DNA of 64,000 nt, taken from positions 744,001 through 808,000 of the forward strand of contig NZ_JACHVS010000001.1 in NCBI RefSeq assembly GCF_014190875.1. The letters are read 5' to 3'. Each line of letters starts with the position of its first letter. Position 1 is the first letter of the stretch. Below the pieces are notes generated by a model, which saw only the letters and a list, made by a program, of their open reading frames with translations, did no database searches and was not told the DNA's origin. The position numbers and the translations under genes were made by a program. Positions 19,562-36,866 of this stretch are shown in pieces. Source of the stretch: Paeniglutamicibacter cryotolerans (GTDB taxonomy: Bacteria; Actinomycetota; Actinomycetes; Actinomycetales; Micrococcaceae).

Positions 19562-20344
19562 TCACCCCATCGGCAGGACGCGCACACCCAGCGCGTACTC
19601 GACTCCGGCCTCTCGACCTGTATTTGTCAGCAGACCGGTGAGCAGTTCCCGTGCCGATACATGATCGGGCAAAGCCGAAAGATAGACCTCGTGCGCATTG
19701 AGTGAGGCGATGCCCATTTCCAAGGACTTCTCGCTCACGGGAATGGCGTGGGTGTTTTCCGTCCCGGTGACCAACAGCCATGAAACCGCCCAGGCCCCCG
19801 GATCGCTTTCCGCCTCGTCAGGGCGGAACAGCCACGGATTATCGGCATCTCGGATCGCATCAATCACGCCAAGTCCCGCTGCCCTGTGATCAGCATGGTT
19901 GAGCCCCCACGGCACCTCCAACTCCCACGTCATGGTCAATACGGCATCCGGTTTGAACCTGCGGATCTGGTGGGTTATATGAGCCCTTACTTCAAGGTCT
20001 GCTTCCAACAGGCCATCGGGCAAATCCAAGATGGTGAGATCCGAAACCCCGACGATTTCACAGGCCCGGCGTTGTTCTTCAGCGCGCAGGGGGCCCACCG
20101 TGCGCGGATCCATTCCGCGGATGCCTGCCTCTCCCGACGTCAGGAGAAGGTATCCCACCTCGATCCCGCGTGAGCGCCATTCGGCTACGGCAGCCGACGC
20201 CCCATATTCCATATCGTCAGGATGGGCCACCACGCATAGAACACGTTGAATTTCTGAATCGTTCAGGTACGGAAGCACTGCGGCTCTCTCTCCATCTGAT
20301 GAACTTGCGGAATTGCCATTGATGGGTCGAGTGTAGGGGAACAT
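19562..20344 (-). CDS. PIG-L family deacetylase
   Basis: A 260-residue zinc-dependent N-deacetylase of the PIG-L/MshB/LmbE group. The metal-binding motif AHPDDMEYG is near residues 40-48, the third ligand lies in WGLNHADHRAAG, and LLTSGEAGIRGMD and the RRFKPDAVLTMTWE strand complete the fold. Family members act on GlcNAc-type conjugates, including mycothiol intermediates. ATG 20344 is chosen as the first start giving a compact protein. It lies behind the purine cluster on the same strand but is separated from it by 285 bases. Confidence 0.85.
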   Translation of the reverse strand: MFPYTRPINGNSASSSDGERAAVLPYLNDSEIQRVLCVVAHPDDMEYGASAAVAEWRSRGIEVGYLLLTSGEAGIRGMDPRTVGPLRAEEQRRACEIVGVSDLTILDLPDGLLEADLEVRAHITHQIRRFKPDAVLTMTWELEVPWGLNHADHRAAGLGVIDAIRDADNPWLFRPDEAESDPGAWAVSWLLVTGTENTHAIPVSEKSLEMGIASLNAHEVYLSALPDHVSARELLTGLLTNTGREAGVEYALGVRVLPMG

Positions 20345-20629
20345 GGCCGGAATTTCACCGCTGGTACGGCTCGGCTGAGCGCAAACCCAGACAGGGGACA
20401 TCGGCCCCCGGCACCCAAGCCGTTCCGGATCACCCGGACCGGTTTTGGCATGCTGCCAACCGATGCACCGTTGCAGCGGAGAAGGCACTGTCGGCGACGG
20501 GGCCGTGTCGAGGCACTGCTCCATGGGGAAACTTCCGGAGAGCGCCGTTTCACCGCCCCCGGAACATCGCCCATGCCGCGATACGGCTAGGACGACGTTA
20601 CGGGTCGGGCCGGCCCGTCTCCCGGGCGC

Positions 20630-22030
20630 CTAGGCCTGGCCCCGGCGCAGCAACTGTCCATGCGGGGTCTGGAAATCCACTTCCGCTCCACGCACGAACG
20701 TCCGGCGCACCTTCCCTGCCAGCGCCTTGCCCTGGTAGGGCGAAATCGGGTTGCGGTGGTGTAGCGCATCGACATCGACCACGTAGCTTTCTTCCGGCGC
20801 GAAGACCGAGAAGTCTGCGTCGTAGCCCAGCGCAATGTGCCCCTTGTGGGAGAGCCGCGCCAGTTCGGCCGGCTTGTGCGCCATCCAGGAGAGCACTTGC
20901 TCCAAGGCGATGCCGCGGCGCTTGGCCTCCGTCCAGATCAGCGAGAGGCCCAGCTGAAGCGAGGCTACCCCGCCCCAGGCCACGCCGAAATCGCCGTTTT
21001 CCAGGTCCTTCAGATCCAGTGTGGAGGGCGAATGGTCCGAGACGATGCAGTCGATGACTCCATCGGCGAGACCCTTCCACAGCAGTTCGCGGTTGGAGGC
21101 CTCGCGGATCGGCGGGCAGCATTTGTATGCGGTGGCCCCGTTCGGGATCTCCTCCGCCAGCAGGGTGAGGTAGTGCGGGCAGGTTTCCACGCTCAACTTC
21201 ACCCCGTCTCGCTTGGCACTGGCGATCATCGCCAACGCGTCGGAGGAGGACAGATGCAGGATGTGCGCCCGAGCACCGGTCCAGCGGGCACGTTCGATGA
21301 CCTCGGCAATGGCCACGTTTTCGGCCCCACGGGGACGGGAGGCCAGGAATCTTCCGTACTGGTCGCCCTCCGCGTTCGGTGCCCGGTCGATGGCCCGCGA
21401 ATCCTCGGCATGGACCAGCATCACTGAATCGAATTGGCGTAGTTCGGCCATGTCCGCTTCCATCTCGTCCGGCTCCAGGTAGGGGAATTCATCGACACCC
21501 GAGTGCAACAGGAAGCACTTGAAACCGAACACCCCCTCGTCGTGCAGCTCGCGGAGGTCCTTCTGGTTCCCCGGGATCGCTCCGCCCCAGAAACCGACAT
21601 CGACAAAGGCCTGGGTTTCGGCGGCGGCGCGCTTCAACGCAAGCGCCGCGACGTCGACCGTCGGCGGGATCGAATTCAGCGGCATGTCCACGATGGTGGT
21701 CACCCCTCCAGCGGCGGCGGCCCGGGTCGCCGAGGCGAAACCCTCCCATTCGGTCCGTCCGGGCTCGTTGACGTGTACGTGAGTGTCCACCAGGCCCGGA
21801 ATCATGACCTCATCCGGGGCAAGTTCGACGTATTCGCGTCCCTGCAGTCCGTTTCCTAGGGGTTCGATGGCGATGACCCGGCCATTGCTGATGCCTACCT
21901 CGCGCCCGACGATCCCGGCGCCGGTGAGCACTCGCGCACCGCTGATAACCAGGTCGTAGACGATCCGCGTTTCGGCGTCCTGGCCCTGCGCCGACTGCTG
22001 CCCCGCGCTGGTTTCCGTTGTATTGCTCAT
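20630..22030 (-). CDS. allB: Allantoinase AllB
   Basis: A 466-residue cyclic amidohydrolase that opens the hydantoin ring of (S)-allantoin to give allantoate. The metal site shows PGLVDTHVHVNEPG (HxH), the carboxylated lysine in GVFGFKCFLLHSGVDEFP, ETCPHYLTL and IVSDHSPS (Asp). The HVNEPGRTEWEGF sequence and the CPPIRE segment fit allantoinase better than dihydropyrimidinase. The stop of glycerate kinase overlaps this start (ATGA-type, 4 bases), and GGAGG lies 9 bases before ATG 22030. It is the last gene of the hyi-garR-gcl-glxK-allB operon. Confidence 0.92.
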   Translation of the reverse strand: MSNTTETSAGQQSAQGQDAETRIVYDLVISGARVLTGAGIVGREVGISNGRVIAIEPLGNGLQGREYVELAPDEVMIPGLVDTHVHVNEPGRTEWEGFASATRAAAAGGVTTIVDMPLNSIPPTVDVAALALKRAAAETQAFVDVGFWGGAIPGNQKDLRELHDEGVFGFKCFLLHSGVDEFPYLEPDEMEADMAELRQFDSVMLVHAEDSRAIDRAPNAEGDQYGRFLASRPRGAENVAIAEVIERARWTGARAHILHLSSSDALAMIASAKRDGVKLSVETCPHYLTLLAEEIPNGATAYKCCPPIREASNRELLWKGLADGVIDCIVSDHSPSTLDLKDLENGDFGVAWGGVASLQLGLSLIWTEAKRRGIALEQVLSWMAHKPAELARLSHKGHIALGYDADFSVFAPEESYVVDVDALHHRNPISPYQGKALAGKVRRTFVRGAEVDFQTPHGQLLRRGQA

Positions 22031-23199
22031 GCGCTGATTCCTCCTTGATTCGTTGTGACCATCATCTCTCCTTCCAGCAGCCCGCGGGCAATCACGGCTC
22101 CGGCCTCGGCCACGAGCCGTGCAGCATCCGCCATGCACACCACGGGATCCGGTTCCAGCGAAGTCAGGGATACCACCTGGCCGAAGCCAGCCCCGCGGGT
22201 CTGGTCCTCGTCGAGCAGGCTGCGCCCGCATACCGCATGTGCGGGGATTCCCGCGGCGGTAGCCACGCTGGCGACCCCGACCGGCGCCTTGCCGGCGAGG
22301 CTTTGCAGGTCGAGGCTTCCCTCGCCGGTAATGACGGCGGCGGCCCCGGCCAATGCTGCATGCAGCCCGGTCAACTCAAGGACCACGTCGATGCCGCGGC
22401 GGCGTTCTGCCCCGAGCACAGCCAGCGCGGCGAACCCGGCCCCACCGGCTGCACCGGCACCGGGCAGAACCGCGGCCGCCCGCGCCCGGCCCTCCCCCAA
22501 AGCAACATCCAGGACGGACACCCAATGCTCAAGTCCTGATTCCAGGGTGGTCACTTCGGCGGGCCCGGCACCCTTTTGCGGCCCGAATACCGCAGCTGCC
22601 CCGTTCGTACCCAGCAACGGATTGTCCACGTCGGCGGCCAGCACGAATTCGGTCAGTTCCAGGCGGGGGTCCATCCCGGCGAGATCAACCTCGTGGATCA
22701 GCCCCAACCCGCCGCCGCCCTGGGGTACCGGGTTCCCGGCGAGGTCCAGCAGGCGCGCCCCCAACCCCCGCAGGAGGCCGGCCCCGCCATCGGTGCAGGC
22801 ACTTCCCCCCACGCCGAGCACGATGCGCCGGGCCCCGGTGTCTAGGGCAGCGGCAATCAGCTGCCCGGCGCCCAGGCTGGTGGAGCCCAGCGCATCGAGC
22901 GCGCCACCGGGCAAGAGATCCAGCCCGGAGGCGGCCGCCAGTTCGATGACGGCGCTGGCGCCGTCGATCGCGATCGCCGCTTCAAGGTCACGGCCGGTGG
23001 GCCCTGTCACCGTATGCCTGGATTCCCTGTGGCCGGCCTCGAGCGCCGCCGCCAAGGTGCCTTCGCCGCCATCTGCAACCGGGATGAGCACGGTACGGGC
23101 ATCTGGAAGCACACGCTCGATGCCCTCGCGCAAGGCCCGGGCCACTTCGGCCCCGGTGAGTGAACCCTTGAACTTGTCCGGGGCGATTACGATCAACAT
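22027..23199 (-). CDS. glxK: Glycerate kinase
   Basis: A 390-residue kinase of the GarK/GlxK family that phosphorylates D-glycerate to 2-phosphoglycerate, the last step from tartronate semialdehyde to glycolysis. It begins MLIVIAPDKFKGSLTGAEVA, and VADGGEGTLAAAL, GGSACTDGGAGLLRGLG and the DVDNPLLG region are signature blocks. Eleven bases separate it from gcl, and it overlaps allB by 4 bases, so it is tightly coupled. Cytoplasmic. GarK or GlxK naming cannot be settled by sequence alone. Confidence 0.94.
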   Translation of the reverse strand: MLIVIAPDKFKGSLTGAEVARALREGIERVLPDARTVLIPVADGGEGTLAAALEAGHRESRHTVTGPTGRDLEAAIAIDGASAVIELAAASGLDLLPGGALDALGSTSLGAGQLIAAALDTGARRIVLGVGGSACTDGGAGLLRGLGARLLDLAGNPVPQGGGGLGLIHEVDLAGMDPRLELTEFVLAADVDNPLLGTNGAAAVFGPQKGAGPAEVTTLESGLEHWVSVLDVALGEGRARAAAVLPGAGAAGGAGFAALAVLGAERRRGIDVVLELTGLHAALAGAAAVITGEGSLDLQSLAGKAPVGVASVATAAGIPAHAVCGRSLLDEDQTRGAGFGQVVSLTSLEPDPVVCMADAARLVAEAGAVIARGLLEGEMMVTTNQGGISA

Positions 23200-23209
23200 G
23201 GCCGCAAGC

Positions 23210-25003
23210 CTAGGCGTTCACGGTGGCCACGGTCAGCGGCGTGATGGCGGTCGGGGCGTCCGCGGCCACCAGGGCAAGGTCCTCGAACTCATTGATGTTA
23301 TCCAGCTCGGTGCCCATGGAAATATTGGTCACTCGTTCCAGGATGACCTCGACCACGACCGGCACCTGGTGCTCCGCCGCCAGTGCTCCGGCGCGGGCGA
23401 AGCCGGCGGCCAGATCGGCCGGGTCCTCGACCCGCACGGCCTTGCAGCCCAGGCCCTCGGCGACCTTGACGTGGTCCACTCCGTAGCCGTTGGTTTCCGG
23501 GGAGTTGATGTTTTCGAAGCCGAGCTGGACATGGTAGTCCATCTCGAAGCCGCGCTGGGCCTGGCGAATCAGGCCCAGGTAGGAGTTGTTGACGACGACA
23601 TGGATGTAGGGCAGTTTGAACTGCGCACCAACGGCCAGTTCCTCGAGCATGAACTGGAAATCGTAGTCGCCGGAGAGCGCAACGACTGTTTCCCCGGGCT
23701 TGCCGCGCACCACGCCCAGAGCTGCGGGACCAGTCCAGCCCAGCGGGCCGGCCTGTCCGGCATTGATCCAACGGCGCGGACCGTAGACGTGCAGCATCTG
23801 CGCGCCGGCGATCTGGGACAGCCCAATGGTGGAGACATAGGTGGTATCCGGGCCGAAGGCCGCATTCATTTCCTGGTACACGCGCTGCGGCTTGATCGGA
23901 ATGTTATCGAAGTTGGTCTTGCGGTGGCCCTCCCCCTTGCGGGCGGTGGTGACGTCGGCCCAACCGGAGTAGTCCTTCAGGGAACCGGCCGCCTGGCGTT
24001 CGGCCGCGACCTCGATCAGGATCTCCAGCGCGGCCTTCGCATCGGAGACGACGCCGAAGTGCGGGGAGAAAACCCGACCGATCTGGGTCGGTTCGATGTC
24101 CACGTGCACGAACGTGCGTCCGGCGGTGTAGGTGTCAAGCCCACCGGTGTGGCGGTTTGCCCAGCGGTTGCCCAGGCCCAGGACGAAGTCCGAGTCCAGG
24201 AAGTTCGCGTTGCCGTAGCGGTGGTGGGTCTGCAGCCCGACCATGCCGGCCATCAGCCGGTGGTCGTCCGGGATCGTCCCCCAGCCCATCAGCGTCGGGA
24301 TCACCGGCACGTTGAGCAGTTCGGCCAGCTCGACCAGCTGTGCGGAGGCATCGGCATTGATGATGCCACCACCGGCGACAATGACCGGGTGTTCGCTGGC
24401 GCTCAGCAGGTCCAGGATCTTCTCGGCCTGGCGGCGGGTGGCCCTCGGCTTCTCGACGGCCAGCGGCTCGTAGGCTTCGATGTCGAACTCGATGACTGCC
24501 TGTTGCACGTCGATGGGCAGGTCGATCAGCACGGGGCCCGGGCGGCCCGAGCGCATGAGCTGGAACGCCTTCTGGAAGGTGCCCGGAACCTGACCCGGTT
24601 CCATGACAGTCACGGCCATCTTGGTCAGCGGTTTGGCAATCGATTCGATGTCCACGGCCTGGAAATCTTCCTTGTGCAGCTTCGCCACCGGGGCCTGACC
24701 GGTGATGCACAGGATCGGGATGGAGTCGGCGAACGCCGCGTAGAGCCCGGTGATCATGTCGGTGCCGGCCGGACCCGAGGTGCCCAGGCAGAGCCCGATG
24801 TTCCCGGCAGCGGAACGCGAGTAGCCGTCGGCCATATGCGAGGCGCCCTCGACGTGTCGGGCCAGGGTGTGGCGGATCCCGCCGTGGGCCCGCATGGCCG
24901 AGTAGAACGGGTTGATGGCGGCTCCGGGCAGCCCGAAGGCCTCGGTGGCCCCCTCCTTTTCGAGGATCAGCACGGCTGCATCAACGGTACGCATCTGGGT
25001 CAT
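23210..25003 (-). CDS. gcl: Glyoxylate carboligase
   Basis: A 597-residue ThDP-dependent enzyme joining two glyoxylates into tartronate semialdehyde plus CO2. It opens with [19 protein letters not shown] and [16 protein letters not shown], where most ThDP enzymes have a Glu but Gcl carries Val; here GLPGAAIN matches Gcl. The ThDP motif GDYDFQFM...[14 protein letters not shown] is in the C-terminal domain and FAD-site segments are in the middle. Full length. It is flanked by hyi and garR upstream and glxK downstream. A strong hairpin lies between garR and gcl. Confidence 0.96.
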
Positions 25004-25057
25004 GAGGTTCTCCTAATACGGGTGCACCGGCACTGCCGGGCGGGGGGGGGTATGTGG

Positions 25058-25096
25058 CGGCCGCCGGTGCGCGTCTAGCACAGGCACCGGCGGCCG
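25058..25096 (-). terminator. Hairpin between garR and gcl
   Basis: A 13-bp perfect stem (25058-25070 with 25084-25096) with a 13-base loop sits in the 131-bp gap between two genes of the same operon, right after a run of nine G. It may be a partial terminator or processing site that sets different levels for hyi-garR and gcl-glxK-allB. Confidence 0.55.
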
Positions 25097-25134
25097 GGAT
25101 GAGGGGGTCGCAGAGCCTAGGCTCCGGTCGGGGA

Positions 25135-26031
25135 TCAGGCCGCTTCGGTAGTTCCGGAAAGTCGCTGGACACCGCGGAAGAGGCCCGAGTGGTCTAGCCC
25201 ACCGTCGCCGTTGGCGACGGTGGATGCCACCAGCTGGGCCACGACGGCACCCAGCGGCAATACGATGCCGGCCTCGCGGGCAGCCGAGGTGACGATACCC
25301 ATGTCCTTGTTGTGCAGGGCCAGGCGGAAGCCCGGGCCGAAGGAACGGTCCAGGATCTTCTGGCCTTTCTGTTCCAGTACCTTGGAACCGGCCAGCCCGC
25401 CACCGAGCACCCGCAAGGCCGCGGTGGTGTCCACGCCGTAGGCCTCAAGGAAGACGACGGCCTCGGAGAGCGCCTGGATATTGGCAGCAACGATCAGCTG
25501 GTTGGCTGCCTTCACCGTCTGTCCAGAGCCAACCGGGCCCACGTGCACGATGGTCTTGCCAATGGATTCAAGGACCGGTAGAGCGGTTTCGAAGTCCTCC
25601 TTCTCCCCGCCGACCATGATCGAGAGCACGGCATCGATGGCGCCCTGTTCTCCACCGGATACCGGCCCGTCCAGCGGGCGCAGTCCCGCCGCACGGGCTT
25701 CGGCGGCCAGTTCCACTGCCACATCGGGGCGGATCGAGGAGTTGTCGATCCACAGTGCCCCGGCCTTGGCGTGGGCGAAGACGCCCTGCTCGCCGCGTAC
25801 GACGGCAGCTACGTCCGGGGAGTCCGGAACCATGGTGATGATGACGTCGGCCCCGGCCACCGCTTCGGGGATGCCCGCGGCGGAGGTCCCCCCGGCCGCG
25901 GCCAGGTCAGCGGCACCTTGTGGGCTACGGTTATAGCCGCTGACCGTGTATCCGGCCTTGACCAGGTTGATGGCCATGGGCAGGCCCATGATGCCCAGTC
26001 CAATGAATGCGACGTGTTCCTTGTTCGACAC
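25135..26031 (-). CDS. garR: 2-hydroxy-3-oxopropionate (tartronate semialdehyde) reductase
   Basis: A 298-residue beta-hydroxyacid dehydrogenase. The NAD(P) site is FIGLGIMGLPMAINLVKAGY (from residue 10). The substrate-binding DGPVSGGEQGA and the catalytic lysine in GSGQTVKAANQLIVAANIQA are as in GarR/GlxR. It reduces tartronate semialdehyde made by Gcl to D-glycerate. It follows hyi by 42 bases. GarR, not 3-hydroxyisobutyrate dehydrogenase, is favoured by context. Confidence 0.93.
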   Translation of the reverse strand: MSNKEHVAFIGLGIMGLPMAINLVKAGYTVSGYNRSPQGAADLAAAGGTSAAGIPEAVAGADVIITMVPDSPDVAAVVRGEQGVFAHAKAGALWIDNSSIRPDVAVELAAEARAAGLRPLDGPVSGGEQGAIDAVLSIMVGGEKEDFETALPVLESIGKTIVHVGPVGSGQTVKAANQLIVAANIQALSEAVVFLEAYGVDTTAALRVLGGGLAGSKVLEQKGQKILDRSFGPGFRLALHNKDMGIVTSAAREAGIVLPLGAVVAQLVASTVANGDGGLDHSGLFRGVQRLSGTTEAA

Positions 26032-26073
26032 GGTATGTCTCCTTCTGAAATCTGGTGGATGGGGCGGTTCGGA

Positions 26074-26874
26074 TCAGGCGTTCTGGCGGATCAGCCAACC
26101 GAAGGCGTCCTCGACGGCGGCCTTGTACTCCAGGCCGATGTGCCCGGCATAGCCCAGTTCACGGCTGCGGGTGATCCAGTCGCCCAGCGGGAGGGTTCCG
26201 CTGCCCGGTGCCCCGCGTCCCGGATCGTCGGCTATCTGGATGTGCCCGAATTCGTGGGCGTGGGCGTTGATAACGGCCTCGACATCGTCACCGTTGACTG
26301 CCAGATGATAGAAGTCGGCGAGCAGCTTCACGTTCTGGACACCGGCTGCACGGGTCTTGGCGATCACCGACAGCGCGTCGTCGGCGAACTTTAACGGATA
26401 GCGGGCCGCGCCCGAGACCGGTTCGAGCAATACCGTACCGCCGATGGCCGCCACGCCGATGGCGGCCGCAACCAGGTTCTCAACTGCCAGCTCGTCCTGG
26501 GCCTCGGGAGTGTGCTCCTCCTGGCGGTTTCCGTAGAGCGCGTTGAAGGCGGTGCATCCGGTGGCGGAGCCGATAGCCACAACGATTTCGATGTTTTCCT
26601 TGAACTCGGAGCAGCGGCCCTTCCAAGAGACCAGTCCGCGGTCTCCCGCTGGCATGTCTCCGGCATTGAAGTTCAGGCCAGTGAGCTGAACGCCGGCGTC
26701 CTTCAATGCGGCGATGAACTGGTCAACCTCGGCGTCCTTCGGAACGGATGCGGCGAAGGGCCACCAGAATTCCACGTTTTCGAAACCGGCGGCCTTGGCG
26801 GCCGCGGGTCGCTGGAGCAGCGGCAGCTCGGTCAGCAGGATGGAGCAGTTGACGGTGTAGGACACGATCGTCAC
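26074..26874 (-). CDS. hyi: Hydroxypyruvate isomerase
   Basis: A 266-residue TIM-barrel isomerase (xylose-isomerase-like) that interconverts hydroxypyruvate and tartronate semialdehyde. Typical blocks are YTVNCSILLTELPLLQRPAAAKAAGFENVEFWWPF, GLNFNAGDMPAGDRG, LLEPVS and LLADFYHL, with metal-binding Glu/Asp/His residues. It is the first gene of the five-gene operon. The start is GTG 26874, and a candidate IclR operator lies only 8 bases upstream, over the leader/RBS region. Confidence 0.93.
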   Translation of the reverse strand: MTIVSYTVNCSILLTELPLLQRPAAAKAAGFENVEFWWPFAASVPKDAEVDQFIAALKDAGVQLTGLNFNAGDMPAGDRGLVSWKGRCSEFKENIEIVVAIGSATGCTAFNALYGNRQEEHTPEAQDELAVENLVAAAIGVAAIGGTVLLEPVSGAARYPLKFADDALSVIAKTRAAGVQNVKLLADFYHLAVNGDDVEAVINAHAHEFGHIQIADDPGRGAPGSGTLPLGDWITRSRELGYAGHIGLEYKAAVEDAFGWLIRQNA

Positions 26875-26881
26875 CCTTCTA

Positions 26882-26898
26882 TTTCATATCGTGGAAAT
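26882..26898. promoter_or_regulatory. Candidate IclR/AllR operator upstream of hyi
   Basis: TTTCATATCGTGGAAAT on the + strand matches two other cluster sites at 10 or more fixed positions (T-T-N4-A-T-N-GTGGA-N2-T). It lies directly before the hyi start, within an AT-rich promoter. A related half-site (TTACATGAAA, 26907-26916) lies 8 bases further out. No other copy is seen inside the coding regions I read. Confidence 0.6.
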
Positions 26899-27030
26899 AA
26901 GTTCTTGTTACATGAAACCCTAGAAGTGGCCAGGGTCACTGTCAAGAGATTTATCGCTAAATGGACACATGATTTCGCCATGCGATATTTAATGCCCGAT
27001 GAGGCGCTTCGAGTCCGTCCGCAACGACCA

Positions 27031-27076
27031 TGGGCCTCGTTAGGCTGGCAGCCAGCTGCCGGCCTAACGAGGCCCA
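27031..27076 (-). terminator. Long hairpin ending the allE operon
   Basis: Outer arms of 15 perfectly complementary bases (27031-27045, 27062-27076) enclose a second perfect 6-bp stem, GGCAGC-CA-GCTGCC. The whole stem is about 22 bp with one G-T pair. It begins 29 bases after the allE stop and separates that operon from the hyi promoter. Confidence 0.85.
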
Positions 27077-27104
27077 TTCGGGTGTCCCGCGGAACAACCT
27101 GCCC

Positions 27105-27950
27105 TTACAGGGCGATCTGTCGATTCACGTCCTTGTAGAGCAAGTACCGGAAATTGGCGGGGCCACCGGCATAGCAAGCCTGTGGGCAGAAGGCGCGTAG
27201 AGCCATGTAGTCGCCCTCCTGCACCTCCACCCAGTCGCCGTTGAGCCGGTAGACGGCCTTGCCTTCGAGGACGTAGAGGCCATGCTCCATCACATGGGTC
27301 TCTGCAAACGGAATCGAGGCCCCGGGTTCGAAGGTCACGATGTTCACGTGCATGTCGTAGGCCAGGTTTTCCGGATCCAGCATCCTGGTCGTGCGCCACT
27401 TGTTGTCGGTACCCGGCATGGCGCCGGGCACCAGGTCCGCTTCATTGCCCACGACCGGGGCAGGAACGTGTCCGGCCAGCGCCTCGTAGCGCTTGCGGAT
27501 CCAGTGGAAGCGGACCACGTCGACACCGTTGTTCGCGGCTTTCCAGGCCGTTCCGGCCGGAAGGAAGGCGAATCCTCCCGCTTCCAGCTCGTGCCCCTGT
27601 CCCTCAATTTCCAGCGCCAGGCGCCCTTCGACCACAAACAGGAATCCCTCGACACCAGACTGCGGTTCCGGGTTTTCGGAGCCGCCGCCGGGCGACACCT
27701 CGACGATGGACTGGGCGAAAGTCGTCGCACCCCCGGCCACGGGCCGGTTCAACACCCAGGCCCGGGTGCCGGTCCATTCGGGAAAGACCGAGGTGACAAT
27801 ATCGCGCATCACTCCGCGCGGAATCACCGTGTAGGCCTCGGTAACGATCGCCCGGTCGGTGAGCAGGTCATTCTGTGGCGGATGCCCGCCCAAATCACTG
27901 TAGTAGGGGCTGCGCTGGAGCGGTTTCGTGGCCGACGGGGTGTTAGACAT
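27105..27950 (-). CDS. allE: (S)-ureidoglycine aminohydrolase AllE
   Basis: A 281-residue double-cupin enzyme converting (S)-ureidoglycine to (S)-ureidoglycolate and ammonia. The first cupin shows FLFVVEGRLALEIEGQ and AGGFAFLPAGTAWKA. The second, metal-binding one shows HVMEHGLYVLEGKAVYRLNGDW and LRAFCPQACYAGG. Length and order match AllE. The start overlaps the upstream DUF6986 gene by 8 bases, indicating translational coupling. The upstream enzyme making ureidoglycine (AllC) is not in the window. Confidence 0.92.
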   Translation of the reverse strand: MSNTPSATKPLQRSPYYSDLGGHPPQNDLLTDRAIVTEAYTVIPRGVMRDIVTSVFPEWTGTRAWVLNRPVAGGATTFAQSIVEVSPGGGSENPEPQSGVEGFLFVVEGRLALEIEGQGHELEAGGFAFLPAGTAWKAANNGVDVVRFHWIRKRYEALAGHVPAPVVGNEADLVPGAMPGTDNKWRTTRMLDPENLAYDMHVNIVTFEPGASIPFAETHVMEHGLYVLEGKAVYRLNGDWVEVQEGDYMALRAFCPQACYAGGPANFRYLLYKDVNRQIAL

Positions 27951-29216
27951 GGCATTCTTCCTTGGTCGTGTGGCGGGAGAGGGCGATCTCCTCGAGCTGG
28001 CCGAAGCCGATGCCGGCCTCTGCGCTGATTTCTTCCAGGGTCAGTGCCCCGCAGGAGTGCCCACGGTGGATGAACCGGGCCAACGCACGGGCGGTGGCCG
28101 GCTCGTCCATGATGGACGATTCGATCTGGTGGACGTAGTTGTTCAATCGCCGTGCCGCGGCACCGAAGCCGTCGCGGTAGAACGAGTAGGTGGCCAGGTA
28201 TCGGGTCACCAGCTGGGCCGGATGCAGGTCCCAGCCCTGGTAGATCCCGCGTTCCAGATGCCGGCGCACCAACCGGGCGTGCAGGGCCCAAGCCCCGGCA
28301 ACGTCCTTCGGGGAACCAAGCGGCAAGATATTCGTCGAGCCATCCGAGAGGTGCACGCCGGTACCTGCAACGGCCACCTGCATCACCGACTTGGCATAGT
28401 CGGCAGCCGGGTGTTCCATCGACTGGTAGGCGGCGGCTATACCCAGCGACGCCGAATAGTCATAAGTGCCGTAGTGCAGCGAAGAGACCCGGCCCTTGCC
28501 CGCATGGATGAGCCGCGCCGAGGGTACCGTGCCGTCTTGGGAGAGGATCAGCTGCGGGGTTTCCATCTGGACTTCGAACCGCAGCCGGCCGGGAGCCAGT
28601 CCGTGGGCCAGTTCGAGCTCTTCGCAGATGAAGACCATGGCTTCAACCTGGGCCACCGTGGTGACCTTAGGCAGGGTCAGCACCAACCCCGAGGGTAGCG
28701 GGCCATGCGCGGAAAGCTCGGAAAGAAAGAGGTCAAGGGTGCGCAGCGCCCTTGACCGGGTAGGCGCCTCGAAACACTTGAACCTGATCCCAATGAACGG
28801 GGGCGCGGTGCCTCCGGCCACCGCTCGGGCCACCAGCCGGGCCGCTTCGCTGGCCGAGGCATCCTCCTCGGCATCGCCACGGTTGCCGTAGCCGTCCTCG
28901 AAGTCCAGGCGAAGGTCCTCGATCGGCTCACTGCCCAGCTTGAGCCCGACGAGTTCCGCGAGGCGTTGGGTCTGCTCCAGCCCCAGGGAGCGGGCAATGG
29001 CTTCGAGTCCGCCAGCCGATGCGGCGGCCTCCAGCGCGGCACCTCCCCAATCGGCCGCCAGCGTTTCGTTGAATTTGTCGGCCGGCACGTAGGCGGTGTG
29101 GATCGGCTGGCGGGTGCCGTCATCGCCCGGATAGGAGTGCTCGAGCATCCGGTCCGTAGCGGCCAGGCGCAGCTCCACGGACTGCAGGGCTCCGGCGTTC
29201 AGCACCGGAGCGGCTT

Positions 29217-29220
<4 letters not shown>
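27943..29220 (-). CDS. DUF6986 protein, HpcH/HpaI aldolase-like
   Basis: A 425-residue protein of the citrate-lyase/HpcH-HpaI (PEP-pyruvate TIM barrel) superfamily, which binds Mg2+ and often glyoxylate or oxaloacetate. Visible features are the acidic RLDFEDGYGNRGDAEED, GLVLTLPKVTT, RFEVQMETPQLIL (Glu ligand) and LHYGTYDYSASLG. It overlaps aceB by 4 bases and allE by 8, so it lies in one translational block with malate synthase and AllE. The family function is unknown. Position suggests an aldolase or a ureidoglycolate-cleaving enzyme; that is inference only. Confidence 0.8.
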
Positions 29221-30842
<1,622 letters not shown>

Positions 30843-30853
30843 GGCAGGGGTCC

Positions 30854-32242
30854 TTACTTCTTCTTGGAGACGGCGGCCACGACTGCGGCGGCGACATCTG
30901 AGGCGACGTGTGGATCAAAGACGTTGGGGACGATGAATCCCGGGTTCAGTTCGGCGTCCGAGACGCGGGCTGCGATGGCGTTGGCCGCGGCCACGAGCAT
31001 GGCCGGTTCGATTTCCGAGACTCCCGCGTCCAGGAGACCGCGGAAGAATCCGGGGAAGGCCAGCACGTTGTTGATCTGGTTCGGGAAGTCGCTACGCCCG
31101 GTGGCGACCACTGCCGCATGGCGGCCGGCGATGTTCGGGTCGATTTCCGGGTCCGGGTTGGCCATGGCGAAGACGATCGAGTCCTTGGCCATGGAGGCCA
31201 CGTGTTTTTCTTCGAGCACGTCTGGTGCCGAAACGCCGATGAAGACATCGGCCCCGGCGACTGCATCGTGCAGCGTTCCACTGAAGTTGTCCGGGTTCGT
31301 GTTTGCTGCCAACCAAGCGCGGTGGGGATCGGCATGCTCGCTATTGCGGTCGATGGCGCCGTTCCGTCCGCAGGCAATGATGTTCGTTGCACCGCGCGCC
31401 TGCAGCAGCTGGATAATGGCGTTGCCGGCGGCTCCGACACCCGAGACCACGATCTTAACCGACTCGATGCGCTTGTTCACGACGAGCAGGGCGTTCTGCA
31501 GCGCGGCGAGGGTCACGATCGCCGTGCCGTGCTGATCGTCGTGGAAGACCGGGATATCCAGTTCCTCGCGCAGGCGGGCCTCGATCTCGAAGCAACGCGG
31601 TGCGGCGATGTCTTCGAGGTTGATGCCTCCGTAGACGGGCGCCAACGCCTTCACGATCATGATGATTTCCTCGGTGTCCTGCGTGTCAAGACACACCGGC
31701 CACGCGTCGACATCGGCAAACTGCTTGAAGAGCGCGGCCTTGCCCTCCATCACCGGCAGCGCGGCGGCCGGGCCGATATTTCCCAGGCCCAGCACGGCCG
31801 AACCGTCGGTGACCACGGCAATGGTGTTGCGCTTGATGGTCAGGTTGCGGGCGTCGGCGGGGTTCTTGGCAATCGCCAGGCAGACCCGGGCCACACCCGG
31901 GGTGTAGGCACGGGAAAGGTCATCTCGGTTGCGCAGCGGAACCTTCGGATTCACCGAGAGCTTGCCGCCCAGATGCATCAGGAAGGTGCGGTCACTCACG
32001 TGCTGGACCGTGACATCGTCAAGCGCGTTCAGGGCATCACGGACGCGCTCGGCGTGCTCTTCGCCCGTCGTGTTGCAGCTGACGTCCACGACCATGGTGT
32101 CGTGCCCCGATTCGGTCACGTCAAGTGCCGTGATGGCACCTCCTACGGAACCCACCGCGATGGCAAGTTCGCTGGTCGCGGTGATCGTCGCGGGGGTTTC
32201 CACCCGAAGCGTCAGTGAGTATCCGGGGCTGGGATTCGCCAT
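30854..32242 (-). CDS. NAD(P)-dependent malic enzyme with ACT domain
   Basis: A 462-residue oxaloacetate-decarboxylating malate dehydrogenase. An ACT-like N-terminal domain (about 8-85) precedes the catalytic part: [49 protein letters not shown] and the Rossmann GVGAAGNAI. It converts malate to pyruvate and CO2, draining the product of the next gene, aceB. It is the first gene of the operon; a candidate IclR operator lies 51 bases before the start. Confidence 0.94.
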
Positions 32243-32292
32243 GCATGCCTCCTGGTTGCGAAAGTAAGCGTCGTCACTCTCGATTTTATTAT

Positions 32293-32309
32293 TTCCGTAT
32301 AGTGGACAT
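32293..32309. promoter_or_regulatory. Candidate IclR/AllR operator between malic enzyme and iclR
   Basis: TTCCGTATAGTGGACAT shares T-T-N4-A-T-N-GTGGA-N2-T with the sites before hyi and the OHCU decarboxylase. It lies in the divergent 264-bp region, 51 bases upstream of the malic enzyme start and about 200 bases upstream of the iclR start. One site could control both promoters. Confidence 0.6.
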
Positions 32310-32506
32310 TATTATCTAACAGATGGAAACGCAAGGGGTTTTGTTGAGAAGTCCCCCCGAGCGCGACAAACAGTTTTCCGAATCGTGGAATCAAACAACC
32401 CCCATCCGGTATTCTGGGATCCAGTGCGGCCCACTTCGAGATGACTTATGGGCAGCCGTCGCACCGGCCCATCACCCGCACGGAATAGACCCGGAAGAGG
32501 CACAAG

Positions 32507-33268
32507 ATGTCCATCAAGCAAGCCAGTGGCGTGCAGTCTGTTGAACGCGCCTTCGAGCTCCTTGAGCTGATGGCCCGCGCCGGCGGAGAGGTTACGCTCA
32601 CCCAGCTCGCCACTGAAACCCCGCTGCCGCTACCGACCATCCACCGCCTGTTGCGGACTCTGGTGGGCATCGGATATGTCAGGCAGCTGCCCAGCCGCAG
32701 ATATTCGCTCGGGCCCCGGCTGATCCGCCTCGGAGAGGTGGCCAACCGCCAGCTGGGCGCACTGGCGGAACCCGTCCTGCGCGAAATGGTGGAACAGTTG
32801 GGCGAGTCGGCCAACATGGCGGTACTGGACGGGGACATGGTCACCTACATCTCCCAAGTCCCCTCCCCCCACTCGATGCGCATGTTCACCGAGGTGGGCC
32901 GCCGGGCCAACCTCCACGACACCGGCGTGGGCAAGGCGATCCTCTCGGTGCTCGCCGACGAACGCGTCCGGCGCCTGGTCGGCGAGGCCGGCATGCCCAC
33001 CCCCACGCCGAATACTATAGCCACCCTCCCCGACCTGTTCACCGAGCTCGAGCGCATCCGCGACGTCGGCTACGCGGTTGACGAGGAGGAGCAGGAACCC
33101 GGCGTCCGGTGCTTTGCGATGGCGGTGCCCGGGGCGCCGACACCGATGGCGTTGTCCATCTCCGGCCCCACGACCCGGGTGGATGCCGCCTTCGCCGACC
33201 GGGCCATTCCGGCCCTGATCCTGGCAACCTCAAAGATCGCCAGCGCACTGGTGGCTGTAGAGAACTGA
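32507..33268 (+). CDS. IclR-family transcriptional regulator (AllR-like)
   Basis: A 253-residue IclR regulator. The winged HTH spans about 8-70 (VERAFELLELMARAGGEVTLTQLATE...PTIHRLLRTLVGIGYV). The effector domain shows LGEVANRQLG, NMAVLDGDMVTYISQ, LHDTGVGKAILSVL and EPGVRCFAMAVPG. It is divergent from the malic enzyme operon and lies between the two halves of the purine cluster. E. coli AllR, a homologue, senses glyoxylate and allantoin; the same is likely here. It probably acts on the shared 17-bp motif. Confidence 0.9.
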   Translation: MSIKQASGVQSVERAFELLELMARAGGEVTLTQLATETPLPLPTIHRLLRTLVGIGYVRQLPSRRYSLGPRLIRLGEVANRQLGALAEPVLREMVEQLGESANMAVLDGDMVTYISQVPSPHSMRMFTEVGRRANLHDTGVGKAILSVLADERVRRLVGEAGMPTPTPNTIATLPDLFTELERIRDVGYAVDEEEQEPGVRCFAMAVPGAPTPMALSISGPTTRVDAAFADRAIPALILATSKIASALVAVEN

Positions 33269-33317
33269 GCCTCTCGGCACCCCTGCCCCGCAGGGAAAGA
33301 CCAGTGGGAATACCCCC

Positions 33318-33373
33318 ACGACCGAAGCTGCGGCATGCGCCCCTGCGGGGGCGCATGCCGCAGCTTCGGTCGT
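33318..33373. terminator. 26-bp perfect hairpin between convergent iclR and permease
   Basis: Two 26-base perfectly complementary arms (33318-33343 and 33348-33373) with a TGCG loop lie between the iclR stop (33268, +) and the permease stop (33382, -). It works in both directions as a shared terminator. Confidence 0.9.
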
Positions 33374-33381
33374 TCGGAAAC

Positions 33382-34941
33382 CTACTTCCGCTCGAATTCG
33401 CTGACTTCCGGTACCGGAATGCCGGCATTCTTGCATTCATGCTGGTGCCGTACCACCTCAGCCCTGAACTCCTCATCTGTCACGAGAATGATTTCATCGC
33501 CGTCGGCATCGATCAGCTTGCCGGCCTGGAAGTAGTCTCCGTCGAGCAACCCGCGGACCTCCTCGCGGCGGACCATGCGCGGTGGCGTGGCCACCAGGAC
33601 CGAGCCGCCCTTCTTCGGGTTGCCGAACTTCATCTCGTTGAAGAGCAGGTTCAACAGCACCGCCATCACCGCGGCGGAGCTGATTCCGGAGTGGAAGATG
33701 GTGGCGAACCAGGTCGGGAACGCATCGTAGAAGTCGGGCTTGACGATCGGGATCATGCCGAAGGCCAGCGAGGCCGAAACGATGATCATATTCAGGCCCT
33801 TGTCATAGTTCACCTTCGACAAGGTGCGCACGCCGCTGGCTGCAACGGTGCCGAAGAGCACGATCCCGGCCCCACCGAGAACCGGAGTGGGGATGGCCGC
33901 AACGACGCGTCCGAGGACCGGCAGAACACCCAGGACCACCAGGATGCCGCCGCCTGCGGTAACCACGAAGCGGGATTTGACCCCGGTAATGGCCACGAGG
34001 CCGACGTTCTGGGCAAAGGCGCTCTGGGTGAAGGTGTTGAAGAAGGGGGCGACGATGCTCGAGGCCATGTCGGCGCGAAGCCCGTTGGCGATACGCTTGG
34101 AGTCGACCCGGGTCTTCGCAATTTCGCCCACGGCCAGGATGTCCGCCGTGGTTTCGGTGAGGATGACCAGCACCACGATGGTCATCGAAATAATGCCGCC
34201 GATCTCGAAGACGGGCCAGCCGAAGGCCAACGGAGCCGGAATGGCGAAGATCGGTCCATTGCCCACGCGGGAGAAGTCGGTCATGCCCACGGCCGCGGCG
34301 ATCAATGTGCCGATAACCATGGCCAGCAGGATGGAGAGCCGCGAGATGGCGGCGACGCCGACCTTGCTCAACAACAGGACGATGGCGAAGGTGACGGCCG
34401 CCAGGCCGATGTTCGGCAGGCTGCCGTAGTCCTCGGAGCTGGCGTTTCCACCCATGGCCCAGTTCGCGGCAACCGGGGTCAGCGAGAGCCCGATCATCGT
34501 AATCACCACGCCAGTCACCACCGGTGGGAAGAACCGTACGATGCGGGCGAAGAACGGGGCTATCAGGAAGCCTATCGCTGAAGCCGCGAGCACCGCGCCA
34601 AAGACCGCGGGAAGGCCACCGCCTCCGTTGACGATGGCAACGAGCGTGGCCACCGAGGCGAAGGACGTTCCCTGCACCAGAGGCAGCTGGCAACCGAAGA
34701 ACGGAATGCCGACGGTCTGCAGGATAGTTGCCAGGCCGCCGATGAACAGACAGCTGGCAACCAGCACACCGACCTGGACATCGTCCAGGCCAGCGGCCCT
34801 GCCGATAATCAGCGGAGGGGCAATGATGCCCCCGTACATGGTCAAGACGTGTTGGAAACCGTAGGCGATGGTCCGTCCCAGGGGCAGGACCTCATCTTCG
34901 GGGCGTTTCGGTATAGCAGTATGACTACTGACAGCCTTCAT
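33382..34941 (-). CDS. NCS2 uric acid/xanthine permease
   Basis: A 519-residue NCS2 (nucleobase-ascorbate) transporter with about 12-14 helices, importing urate or xanthine at the membrane. TIAYGFQHVLTMYGGIIAPP is the helix-1 motif and QNVGLVAITGVKSRFVV is the family signature. The AAK/GLP/QLP-rich helices 3-8 fit. ATG 34941 has AAGGAGG 6 bases before it. About 80 residues (from KFGNPKKGGS) follow the last helix and are unusual for the family; they are hydrophilic and look soluble. It follows uricase in the same operon. PucJ/UacT-type function is by context. Confidence 0.92.
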   Translation of the reverse strand: MKAVSSHTAIPKRPEDEVLPLGRTIAYGFQHVLTMYGGIIAPPLIIGRAAGLDDVQVGVLVASCLFIGGLATILQTVGIPFFGCQLPLVQGTSFASVATLVAIVNGGGGLPAVFGAVLAASAIGFLIAPFFARIVRFFPPVVTGVVITMIGLSLTPVAANWAMGGNASSEDYGSLPNIGLAAVTFAIVLLLSKVGVAAISRLSILLAMVIGTLIAAAVGMTDFSRVGNGPIFAIPAPLAFGWPVFEIGGIISMTIVVLVILTETTADILAVGEIAKTRVDSKRIANGLRADMASSIVAPFFNTFTQSAFAQNVGLVAITGVKSRFVVTAGGGILVVLGVLPVLGRVVAAIPTPVLGGAGIVLFGTVAASGVRTLSKVNYDKGLNMIIVSASLAFGMIPIVKPDFYDAFPTWFATIFHSGISSAAVMAVLLNLLFNEMKFGNPKKGGSVLVATPPRMVRREEVRGLLDGDYFQAGKLIDADGDEIILVTDEEFRAEVVRHQHECKNAGIPVPEVSEFERK

Positions 34942-35019
34942 GGCTGACCTCCTTAGTGGATGCCGCGATGGGGTTGTGGTGCCCCGCCCCGCAGGAGGGG
35001 CACCACAACCGTTCATCGC

Positions 35020-35943
35020 CTAGCAGAAACCGGGCGTATTTTCCCAAACTGAATGCGTGGCGGGGACCCCTTCACGCGTGATCGTGGCCTCGATCAGCCC
35101 GTACGGGCGATCAGCCGCAAAGAACACCTCGTTGGGATTCTCCTGCCCGAAGGGCGAGAGGTCAACGAGGAAGTGGTGCTTGTTCGGCAAAGACATGCGG
35201 ATTTCCTGGATTTCCGGGTGGGCTTCCAGGACCAGCTTGCCCATCTCAAACATCGATTGCTGCAGGGCTAGCGAGTGCGTGGCGGAGAAGCCCTTCAGCA
35301 GCAGCCCGCGCACCGAGGCGTATATGGCGTTGAAGTCGATGGTGCCGGCGTCTGCCGCCACATCGTCGTAGCGCCAGCGGGCAGTGACATCCGTGGCCAG
35401 GATCCGATCGGTGGCTTCCTGCAGCGTGGTGTACTTGTCCACAGGGAACCCGGTGAACTCGCTGCCAGTCGACTTCAGGACCGTCAGGTCCCGGATGCCC
35501 GCCAGGAAGTGGAAGCGGCCGTTCTCCACCTCGAGCGCGGCGGTGCGTACCTCGGACTTGTTCCGCGAGAACGAGTGGTCGTGGTCCTCGATGCGGTCCC
35601 AGAAGTACTGCTCGGCCGACCAGCGGCCGCCGTTGACCCATGCGAATTCCGAGGTGAAGTGCTTACCAAGACGCCCCAAGAATGCTTCCGGGGAACCCAC
35701 TCCGTCGCGAGCGAAGGAATACACGGTATTCTTCTGCGTGTCGGTCGGAACCACGTGGGCATTATCGCCGTCCAGGTGCGCGTTTTCGAAGTCTCCATGC
35801 AGCTGAGAGCTGACATTCAGGTCCTCGATGGTGTGCCGCGCGGAGTCACGGGTCACCTTGACTACCCGAACTTCGGCCTTGCCGAACTGGTTCTTGCCCA
35901 GGATGATGCTGGTGCCGGTCTTCGCTTCTGCTGTGGTGGTCAT
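35020..35943 (-). CDS. uox: Urate oxidase (uricase)
   Basis: A 307-residue cofactor-free urate oxidase turning urate into 5-hydroxyisourate. It shows GKNQFGKAEVRVVKVTRD, the SSQLHGDFENAHLDGDNAHVVPTDTQKNTVY block (catalytic Thr and its partners), LKSTGSEFTGFPVDKYTTL (Arg/Gln/Phe site) and SLPNKHHFLVDLSPFGQ with the conserved HH. ATG 35943 follows GGAGCTAATCTC. The gene ends 79 bases before the permease. Stop-start spacing to the HIU hydrolase gene is 4 bases. Confidence 0.97.
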   Translation of the reverse strand: MTTTAEAKTGTSIILGKNQFGKAEVRVVKVTRDSARHTIEDLNVSSQLHGDFENAHLDGDNAHVVPTDTQKNTVYSFARDGVGSPEAFLGRLGKHFTSEFAWVNGGRWSAEQYFWDRIEDHDHSFSRNKSEVRTAALEVENGRFHFLAGIRDLTVLKSTGSEFTGFPVDKYTTLQEATDRILATDVTARWRYDDVAADAGTIDFNAIYASVRGLLLKGFSATHSLALQQSMFEMGKLVLEAHPEIQEIRMSLPNKHHFLVDLSPFGQENPNEVFFAADRPYGLIEATITREGVPATHSVWENTPGFC

Positions 35944-35947
35944 GAGA

Positions 35948-36304
35948 TTAGCTCCCTCGGTACGTGGAATATGCAAACGGGCTGATAAGAAGGGGTACAT
36001 GGTAGTGATCGGTGGTGCTAGACACCTGGAAATCGATTGTTACCGTGGGGAAGAAAGTTTCCGTTCCCTGCTTCCCGAAGTAGGCGCCAGTGTCGAATCC
36101 GACGCGGTAGGTGCCGACTTCAACCTGAACCGGTCCCAGGTTTCTGATGCGGCCATCGCCGTCAGTGAACCCGGATCCGATTTCTTGCCAGCCGGATGCC
36201 GTCTTAGCTTCCAGCGTGGCCTTGACACCGGAGGCGGGCCTCCCGGTCCCGGTGTCGAGTACATGGGTGGTGATATGGCTGACTTCAGCCGGTAATGAGC
36301 TCAT
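35948..36304 (-). CDS. pucM: 5-hydroxyisourate hydrolase
   Basis: A 118-residue transthyretin-like HIU hydrolase. It ends in the diagnostic YRGS tetrapeptide and holds THVLDTGTGRPASGVK near the start and ETFFPTVTIDFQV plus DHYHVPLLISPFAYSTY near the end; the two conserved His and one Arg are present. It acts on the product of uricase to give OHCU. Four bases separate it from uricase. Confidence 0.96.
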   Translation of the reverse strand: MSSLPAEVSHITTHVLDTGTGRPASGVKATLEAKTASGWQEIGSGFTDGDGRIRNLGPVQVEVGTYRVGFDTGAYFGKQGTETFFPTVTIDFQVSSTTDHYHVPLLISPFAYSTYRGS

Positions 36305-36368
36305 GAATGGCTCCTGTCTGTGGGTCGTGGCTGTACGGCGGGCCCGGCCAACCGGATCCGCGGAACGG

Positions 36369-36866
36369 TCAGGGTGCGTCGATCAGGTTGCGCAGACGAA
36401 GGACGGCGATCTCGCGGAGCTGCGTTGCCGTTTCGGCGAACTCTTGCGCGTCATTGTTCCGCAGCCGGCCTTCAAGCGATTCGAGAATTTCCCCGGCGCT
36501 GCGACCGGCGGCACGGATCAGAAAAACTCGGTCGAAGCGCTCTTCGTATGCGGCGTTGCCCTCGCTCAGGCGGCGGGCCATGTCCTGGTCAGCACTGACG
36601 CCCGACTGCTCGGTACGGCTCATTCTTGCTTCGCTCGAGCTGCCGGCCGCACGGTCCCCGATCCGGGGATGGTGGGCCAATGCCGTGGCGAGTTCGGCCG
36701 AGGTGAAGGGAAATGCGGAATTGCTGGCCGTCCGAAGCAAGGCATTCAGGTCCGCATATGGACGGGAACTGACAATTGCCTCAATCCAGCGATCAATGTC
36801 GGCGCAGGGACGTACCAACTGGCGCACTGAATTTACGGGGGCGCTATTGAAATCGGTCAAATTCAT
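36369..36866 (-). CDS. uraD: OHCU decarboxylase
   Basis: A 165-residue 2-oxo-4-hydroxy-4-carboxy-5-ureidoimidazoline decarboxylase that makes (S)-allantoin. ALAHHPRIGDRAA holds the catalytic His and the HPRIG motif; SRTEQSGVSADQDMARRLSEGNAAYEERFDRVFLIRAAGRS is the typical family core. It is the first gene of the uric-acid operon; a candidate IclR operator lies about 94 bases before it. Confidence 0.94.
   Translation of the reverse strand: MNLTDFNSAPVNSVRQLVRPCADIDRWIEAIVSSRPYADLNALLRTASNSAFPFTSAELATALAHHPRIGDRAAGSSSEARMSRTEQSGVSADQDMARRLSEGNAAYEERFDRVFLIRAAGRSAGEILESLEGRLRNNDAQEFAETATQLREIAVLRLRNLIDAP

Follow-up and report, generated by a model that had tools for sequence, protein, structure and literature searches.

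An excerpt of PMC6320678 names two enzymes that convert ureidoglycolate to glyoxylate, a lyase and an amidohydrolase. The lyase AllA is a nickel-dependent urea-lyase composed of two small cupin-type barrels (excerpt of PMC3793230), and in Arthrobacter sp. Rue61a, which grows on allantoin, candidate genes for the conversion of allantoate to glyoxylate "were not obvious" (excerpt of PMC3534580). The present analysis concerns a DUF6986 protein encoded within a urate degradation cluster of Paeniglutamicibacter cryotolerans, in a stretch of 64,000 nucleotides of contig NZ_JACHVS010000001.1 (the window). Judged by its distribution among genomes and its predicted fold, this protein is very probably a ureidoglycolate urea-lyase (EC 4.3.2.3 activity), unrelated to AllA/DAL3 and built on the TIM barrel of the malyl-CoA lyase/CitE/malate synthase superfamily.

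It is also likely that DUF6986 represents the third independently evolved ureidoglycolate enzyme, after AllA/DAL3 and the plant-type UAH, and a C-N urea-lyase derived from a C-C-cleaving superfamily; it would be the usual lyase of uric-acid-degrading Actinomycetota and common in Acidobacteria, Bacteroidetes, Myxococcota and other phyla. In the lineage of the window, a minimal set of AllB, a bifunctional cupin and DUF6986 would take allantoin to glyoxylate without AllC, allantoicase and AllA.

The proposed reaction, the location beside allantoicase and the presence of AllA instead of DUF6986 in six sampled Pseudomonadota liken the protein to AllA/DAL3 (PF04115, EC 4.3.2.3). Unlike the two nickel-dependent cupin-type barrels of AllA, DUF6986 is predicted to form a TIM barrel, and PF04115 is not among the Pfam matches of the window protein; it would work like AllA but outside the AllA family, in the CitE/malyl-CoA lyase superfamily by predicted fold. 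The malyl-CoA and beta-methylmalyl-CoA lyases (4l9y, 4l9z, and 5ugr) share only 14–19% identity with DUF6986, and three DUF6986 proteins score 15.4, 24.5, and 22.6 bits against the malyl-CoA lyase model NF041626, far under its cut-off of 500. Compared with malyl-CoA lyase, DUF6986 is longer, lies mostly with purine genes at well-flanked loci, and is proposed to cut a C-N rather than a C-C bond. The malate synthases A and G (MS_TIM-barrel, PF01274) differ in having N- and C-terminal domains, neither of which has a Pfam match in the window protein; the genuine aceB directly adjoins the DUF6986 gene. The (S)-ureidoglycolate dehydrogenase AllD likewise consumes ureidoglycolate, but no homologue was found in the genome of P. 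cryotolerans at E 1e-3. The "UGL" of Burkholderia cenocepacia belongs to the FAH family. It bears the EC 4.3.2.3 label in databases, but this label is disputed (excerpt of PMC3793230).

The word DUF6986 was not found in the literature searched, and no third enzyme was evident among the papers listed for pathway terms, although a protein under another name, subscription papers and preprints could escape such searches. If the proposed function is correct, a recognised hole, exemplified by the growth of Arthrobacter sp. Rue61a on allantoin, would be filled, and a role would be assigned to a domain of unknown function whose Pfam family has thousands of members. The names "aldolase" and "citrate lyase beta subunit," found among the existing labels of family members, would be corrected, and a C-N lyase would join a superfamily whose known chemistry concerns C-C bonds.

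Distribution of DUF6986 in Actinomycetota

The strongest evidence for the proposed function is the distribution of DUF6986 among genomes. The same 266 Actinomycetota genomes were searched for five families, with full-length DUF6986 defined by E < 1e-100. Any match to DUF6986 was found in 96 genomes, 68 of which contain only short matches below 50 bits; these probably belong to the wider CitE/HpcH group (two such proteins were inspected) and were not counted. Full-length DUF6986 is thus present in 28 of the 266 genomes. Allantoicase is encoded by 28 genomes and the AllE cupin by four, without overlap, giving 32 ureidoglycolate producers. All 28 genomes with DUF6986 are producers, 24 with allantoicase and four with AllE, while none of the 234 genomes devoid of both enzymes contains DUF6986. 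Allantoicase and AllE both yield ureidoglycolate, which is most simply read as the substrate of DUF6986. The genome search proposed in the original prediction therefore links DUF6986 to ureidoglycolate producers (28/32 versus 0/234). The allantoinase gene was rejected as the gene tracked by DUF6986: 16 of the 45 genomes with AllB lack allantoicase and AllE, and DUF6986 is absent from all 16.

AllA in Place of DUF6986

A sample of 189 Pseudomonadota genomes (phylum checked) was centred on Marinicella G299, picked for having DUF6986. Allantoicase was found in seven genomes, AllA in 45, and DUF6986 (at 1e-30) only in G299. All six sampled Pseudomonadota with allantoicase encode AllA on the same strand, at most 130 bases from allantoicase (measured between profile-match ends), and none of the six has DUF6986. 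Marinicella G299 lacks AllA and carries DUF6986 within its allantoicase cluster. Among 38 producers (G299 excluded), 27 have DUF6986 only, six AllA only, one both and four neither (p 5e-4; the Fisher p values ignore phylogeny). The genome with both is G249. Its AllA-family protein scores 44.9 bits and adjoins an amidase, a luciferase-like monooxygenase and an NMT1-type protein, so that its role as the pathway lyase is doubted.

The search for AllA also covered the genomes of 48 of the 80 best DUF6986 loci described below. The expectation that allA would be absent from genomes with DUF6986 held for 43 of them, which have no AllA-family match; three have strong and two partial matches. In one of the three (G281), AllA adjoins allantoicase, OHCU decarboxylase and HIUH; in the other two (G287 and G288), none of these was found within 3.5 kb around AllA.

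Gene Neighbourhoods Across Phyla

In deep actinobacterial lineages, the genes are arranged as AllB – allantoicase – (OHCU) – HIUH – (uricase) – DUF6986. Apart from the window, a purine gene was present in the fetched stretch at 17 of 27 Actinomycetota loci. The ten others comprise eight loci of genus g9, G255, and G231, in which only 120 bases separate the DUF6986 match from the end of the contig.

A scan with 17 aligned DUF6986 members yielded at least 578 loci, of which the best 80 were analyzed; found with a divergent first sequence, they are biased to the side of the tree of that sequence. Their titles include Acidobacteria, Bacteroidetes, Deltaproteobacteria/Myxococcales, Gemmatimonadetes, Elusimicrobia, Spirochaetales, Verrucomicrobiaceae, Gammaproteobacteria and others. 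Distant members are encoded in Marinicella litoralis (L167) and in Flavobacterium luteum (L179), the latter within an allantoicase cluster. At the thresholds used, the 80 loci contain allantoicase (49/80), AllB (46/80), HIUase (58/80) and OHCU decarboxylase (52/80); none of these genes is present at 21 loci, 15 of which have less than 6 kb on one side. Among the 37 well-flanked loci, which have at least 6 kb on either side, allantoicase is present at 30 and any purine gene at 31. The search for DUF6986 next to allE or allantoicase thus revealed an association extending over many phyla. Three AllA queries had no match at any of the 107 DUF6986 loci at 1e-5. Malate synthase was rejected as a conserved partner: at the thresholds used, aceB was found at one of the 27 other Actinomycetota loci and at 0 of the 80 others, as was Gcl (1/27 and 0/80).

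The Uricolytic Cluster of the Window

The cluster, predicted earlier from the window itself, was confirmed: the open reading frames (ORFs) are present at the positions below, and their families were matched by profile.

36369..36866, minus strand: OHCU decarboxylase (PF09349, 132 bits)
35948..36304, minus strand: HIUase (PF00576, 130 bits)
35020..36000, minus strand: uricase ORF (PF01014, 196 bits)
33382..35016, minus strand: NCS2 xanthine/urate-type permease (TIGR03173, 491 bits)
32507..33268, plus strand: IclR-family regulator, divergent from malic enzyme (PF01614, PF09339)
30854..32242, minus strand: malic enzyme (PF00390, PF03949)
29217..30842, minus strand: malate synthase A, aceB (TIGR01344, 708 bits)
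27943..29220, minus strand: DUF6986 gene, 425 amino acids, proposed ureidoglycolate lyase (PF22484, 562 bits)
27105..27950, minus strand: AllE-type two-cupin protein, (S)-ureidoglycine aminohydrolase, possibly active on allantoate as well (NF008376, 462 bits; NF040771, 450 bits; TIGR03214, 303 bits)
26074..26874, minus strand: hydroxypyruvate isomerase-like protein, Hyi (TIGR03234, 229 bits, under the cut-off of 353)
25135..26031, minus strand: tartronate semialdehyde reductase, GlxR (TIGR01505, 366 bits, cut-off 341)
23210..25003, minus strand: glyoxylate carboligase, Gcl (TIGR01504, 1093 bits)
22027..23199, minus strand: glycerate kinase, GlxK (TIGR00045, 343 bits)
20630..22231, minus strand: allantoinase AllB ORF, 533 amino acids (TIGR03178, 539 bits, residues 93-527)

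On the minus strand, genes for OHCU decarboxylase, HIUase, uricase and the NCS2 permease are followed, beyond the plus-strand IclR gene, by malic enzyme, malate synthase, DUF6986 and the cupin, and then by Hyi, GlxR, Gcl, GlxK and AllB. The overlap of the uricase and HIUase ORFs indicates that the true start of uricase may sit further in. The AllB ORF shares 205 bases with glxK, and its match to the allantoinase profile starts only at residue 93; the true AllB gene is therefore taken to span about 20630-21955.

The junction of aceB and DUF6986 is a 4-base overlap (ATGA) and that of DUF6986 and the cupin gene an 8-base overlap (ATGTCTAA), both read directly from the sequence as had been predicted. 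The coupling of the three genes is real in the window, but the overlap with malate synthase is local, as the rarity of aceB at other loci indicates. A near-perfect 23-base inverted repeat (27030-27077, 96%, 2-base loop) lies in the gap between the cupin gene and hyi. This repeat may act as a terminator or attenuator that divides the cluster into two transcripts, so that malic enzyme, aceB, DUF6986 and the cupin may form a transcript of their own.

The Allantoate and Ureidoglycolate Steps

The assembly of P. cryotolerans comprises 4.14 Mb and is 99.99% complete. Searches of the whole assembly found no AllA, no allantoicase and, at E 1e-3, no AllD homologue, so that an AllA or AllD hidden elsewhere was rejected. 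No known enzyme of the ureidoglycolate step was thus found, in line with the original prediction, and the separate allA or ureidoglycolate dehydrogenase that it named as contrary evidence was not found in these searches. Homologues of AllD occur in nine of 31 tested genomes, and none of the 31 has one over the cut-off.

Allantoate amidohydrolase had also been described as missing. This is correct for canonical AllC, of which three homologues are encoded elsewhere in the genome with 179-200 bits against a cut-off of 598. It may not hold for the step as such, since the cupin of the window, with 450 bits, passes the cut-off of 350 of the NCBI model NF040771 (called "bifunctional allantoicase/(S)-ureidoglycine aminohydrolase"), for which no source paper was found in the literature search. 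The allantoate step may therefore not be missing, and with the cupin possibly covering it, the ureidoglycolate step is the clearest gap. The cupins of G008, G082, and G249 also exceed this cut-off (463.5, 502, and 452 bits); in all four proteins NF008376, the model of plain ureidoglycine aminohydrolase, scores slightly higher. Solved relatives of the window cupin are 1sq4, 1sef, 1rc6, 1sfn, and 4e2q. AllC has no match in G008 and G249 at E 1e-40 and a single one, under the cut-off, in G082, a pattern that fits a cupin also handling allantoate.

Predicted Fold and Proposed Mechanism

The window protein matches PF22484 with 562 bits (cut-off 27) over profile positions 1-405 of 408, and is thus a full-length member of the family; a PF22484 match was present in 7998 of 7999 scored candidates. 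Its closest named relatives, 76-77% identical, are from Paeniglutamicibacter (Actinomycetota, Micrococcaceae). No sequences of the PDB were matched by phmmer, while a profile search did find relatives. The structure model, which is confident (pLDDT 93.8), is a TIM barrel of the Mg-dependent CitE/malyl-CoA lyase/malate synthase superfamily; among its matches is malyl-CoA lyase in complex with Mg and glyoxylate.

Conserved Arg, Glu and Asp residues form the Mg/oxoacid site of this superfamily. In DUF6986, E220 and D254 aligned with the site in one comparison and R146, E220, and D254 in another, and all three residues are invariant in DUF6986 alignments; one sequence set (A1) comprised 24 of the 28 Actinomycetota members. 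The retained metal-site residues and the malyl-CoA lyase-like model bear out the fold, that of Mg-dependent, glyoxylate-binding aldolases, assigned in the original prediction. Malyl-CoA lyase has a catalytic Asp near its C terminus; the invariant D372 of DUF6986 is offset by one residue from the CitE-like Asp, with which E373 is aligned.

Substrate, products and mechanism can be proposed on this basis. DUF6986 would convert (S)-ureidoglycolate to glyoxylate and urea. Mg2+ bound to E220 and D254 would hold the carboxylate and hydroxyl of ureidoglycolate, assisted by R146. An acid/base, perhaps provided by the acidic pair D372-E373, would remove the hydroxyl proton as the C-N bond breaks. Urea would depart where the related enzymes release the acetyl-CoA enolate, with glyoxylate staying bound to Mg. 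In the pathway, AllB would produce allantoate from allantoin, the putatively bifunctional cupin would convert it to ureidoglycolate, and DUF6986 would release glyoxylate, to be used by malate synthase, encoded next to DUF6986, and by the Gcl-GlxR-GlxK branch. The retro-addition suggested earlier as filling the ureidoglycolate gap is thus favoured by the distribution, the neighbours, the replacement by AllA and the predicted fold.

Alternative Functions and Contrary Evidence

The fold, shared with malate synthase and malyl-CoA lyase, could also suit an aldolase or synthase that condenses glyoxylate and so removes what the pathway makes, ureidoglycolate being cleaved spontaneously or by another enzyme. 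The overlap with malate synthase in the window, a malate synthase next door in G008, and Gcl in the same stretch in G082 are consistent with such a role. This alternative, named in the original prediction, is nevertheless very unlikely and has been weakened by the neighbourhoods, since the 37 well-flanked loci include 30 with allantoicase and none with malate synthase or Gcl. Glyoxylate also arises by other routes, and DUF6986 was not found in the 234 Actinomycetota that are not producers; nor does a condensing aldolase predict the absence of DUF6986 from the sampled genomes with AllA.

The evidence from pathway position and distribution applies in the same way to hydrolysis of ureidoglycolate to glyoxylate, two ammonia and carbon dioxide (EC 3.5.3.19), as performed by plant UAH. 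This activity is scarcely probable: UAH is an amidohydrolase of another family, and a site of the malyl-CoA lyase type would suit retro-addition better than the attack of water on an amide. Co-occurrence is unable to separate ureidoglycolate from a closely linked substrate, and DUF6986 might instead serve an adjacent step of the pathway or process a by-product, acting, e.g., on (R)-ureidoglycolate, in a racemase-like role, or on ureidoglycine, being needed whenever ureidoglycolate is made. Such a role is very unlikely, considering that the six sampled Pseudomonadota producers have in its place AllA, a ureidoglycolate urea-lyase (excerpt of PMC3793230). An anti-phage role was rejected, with no PADLOC match.

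Several observations weigh against the function of DUF6986 as the ureidoglycolate urea-lyase. A C-N lyase would be unusual for the Mg-dependent malyl-CoA lyase superfamily. Ureidoglycolate decays spontaneously. Four producers lack full-length DUF6986 and AllA: G038 and G071, which belong to one genus and have allantoicase, G259, and G083, whose 4485-base contig stops just past allantoicase. The absence of both enzymes from G038 and G071 indicates that some bacteria manage without DUF6986 or AllA. One of the three AllC homologues of P. cryotolerans under the cut-off could in principle be a ureidoglycolate amidohydrolase. DUF6986 is not clustered with purine genes in the eight genomes of genus g9 and in G255, and no listed purine gene was found at six well-flanked loci (L124, L139, L151, L156, L166, and L175), the genomes of L124, L156, L166, and L175 not having been searched for allantoicase elsewhere. 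The 266 Actinomycetota show no anticorrelation of DUF6986 with AllA (p 0.43), because AllA is present in only five of them. The genomes G281, G287, and G288 combine strong AllA matches with DUF6986, and near the DUF6986 genes of these three (L139, L149, and L151; the left flank of L149 is short) there is no listed purine gene. At purine-free loci, DUF6986 may represent paralogues or dispersed pathways. At L139 the neighbours include an amidohydrolase, at L124 an M49 peptidase, at L166 an aldehyde dehydrogenase and at L175 a beta-lactamase-fold protein.

A protein of the polysaccharide deacetylase family, to which PuuE belongs, adjoins allantoicase in G071; in G038, with two copies, it adjoins one of them. 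In the latter genome (L098, 8402-13928), allantoinase and allantoicase adjoin a 2OG-Fe(II) oxygenase and a metallo-beta-lactamase-fold protein, which might be another ureide enzyme.

Phylogeny and Possible Transfer of the Module

In a tree of 33 sequences, the DUF6986 proteins of AllE-type genomes form one clade (0.986) among the allantoicase-type sequences, suggesting that the upstream enzyme changed while DUF6986 stayed. Proteins of G249, a member of another family, are 76% (AllB), 77% (AllE) and 67% (DUF6986) identical to those of the window, compared with 62% (AllE) and 64% (DUF6986) for G008 of the same family. The greater closeness of G249 suggests joint transfer of the module.

The G249 locus (L085, 4828-11900) is a compact allantoin module of AllB, a cytosine/purine/allantoin-type permease, an Asp/Glu/hydantoin racemase, AllE, DUF6986 and an IclR regulator. 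Its AllB, AllE, DUF6986 and IclR are 63-77% identical to those of the window, which suggests horizontal transfer.

Other Features of the Window

The IclR and permease genes converge, and between their 3' ends lies a perfect inverted repeat of 26 bases with a 4-base loop (33318-33373), possibly a two-way terminator. The intergenic region of malic enzyme and IclR contains two 15-base direct repeats, 87% alike (32292-32306 and 32375-32389), which are possible regulator sites, although chance could also explain them. Downstream of AllB, on the same strand, lies an ORF of the PIG-L deacetylase family (19562-20524).

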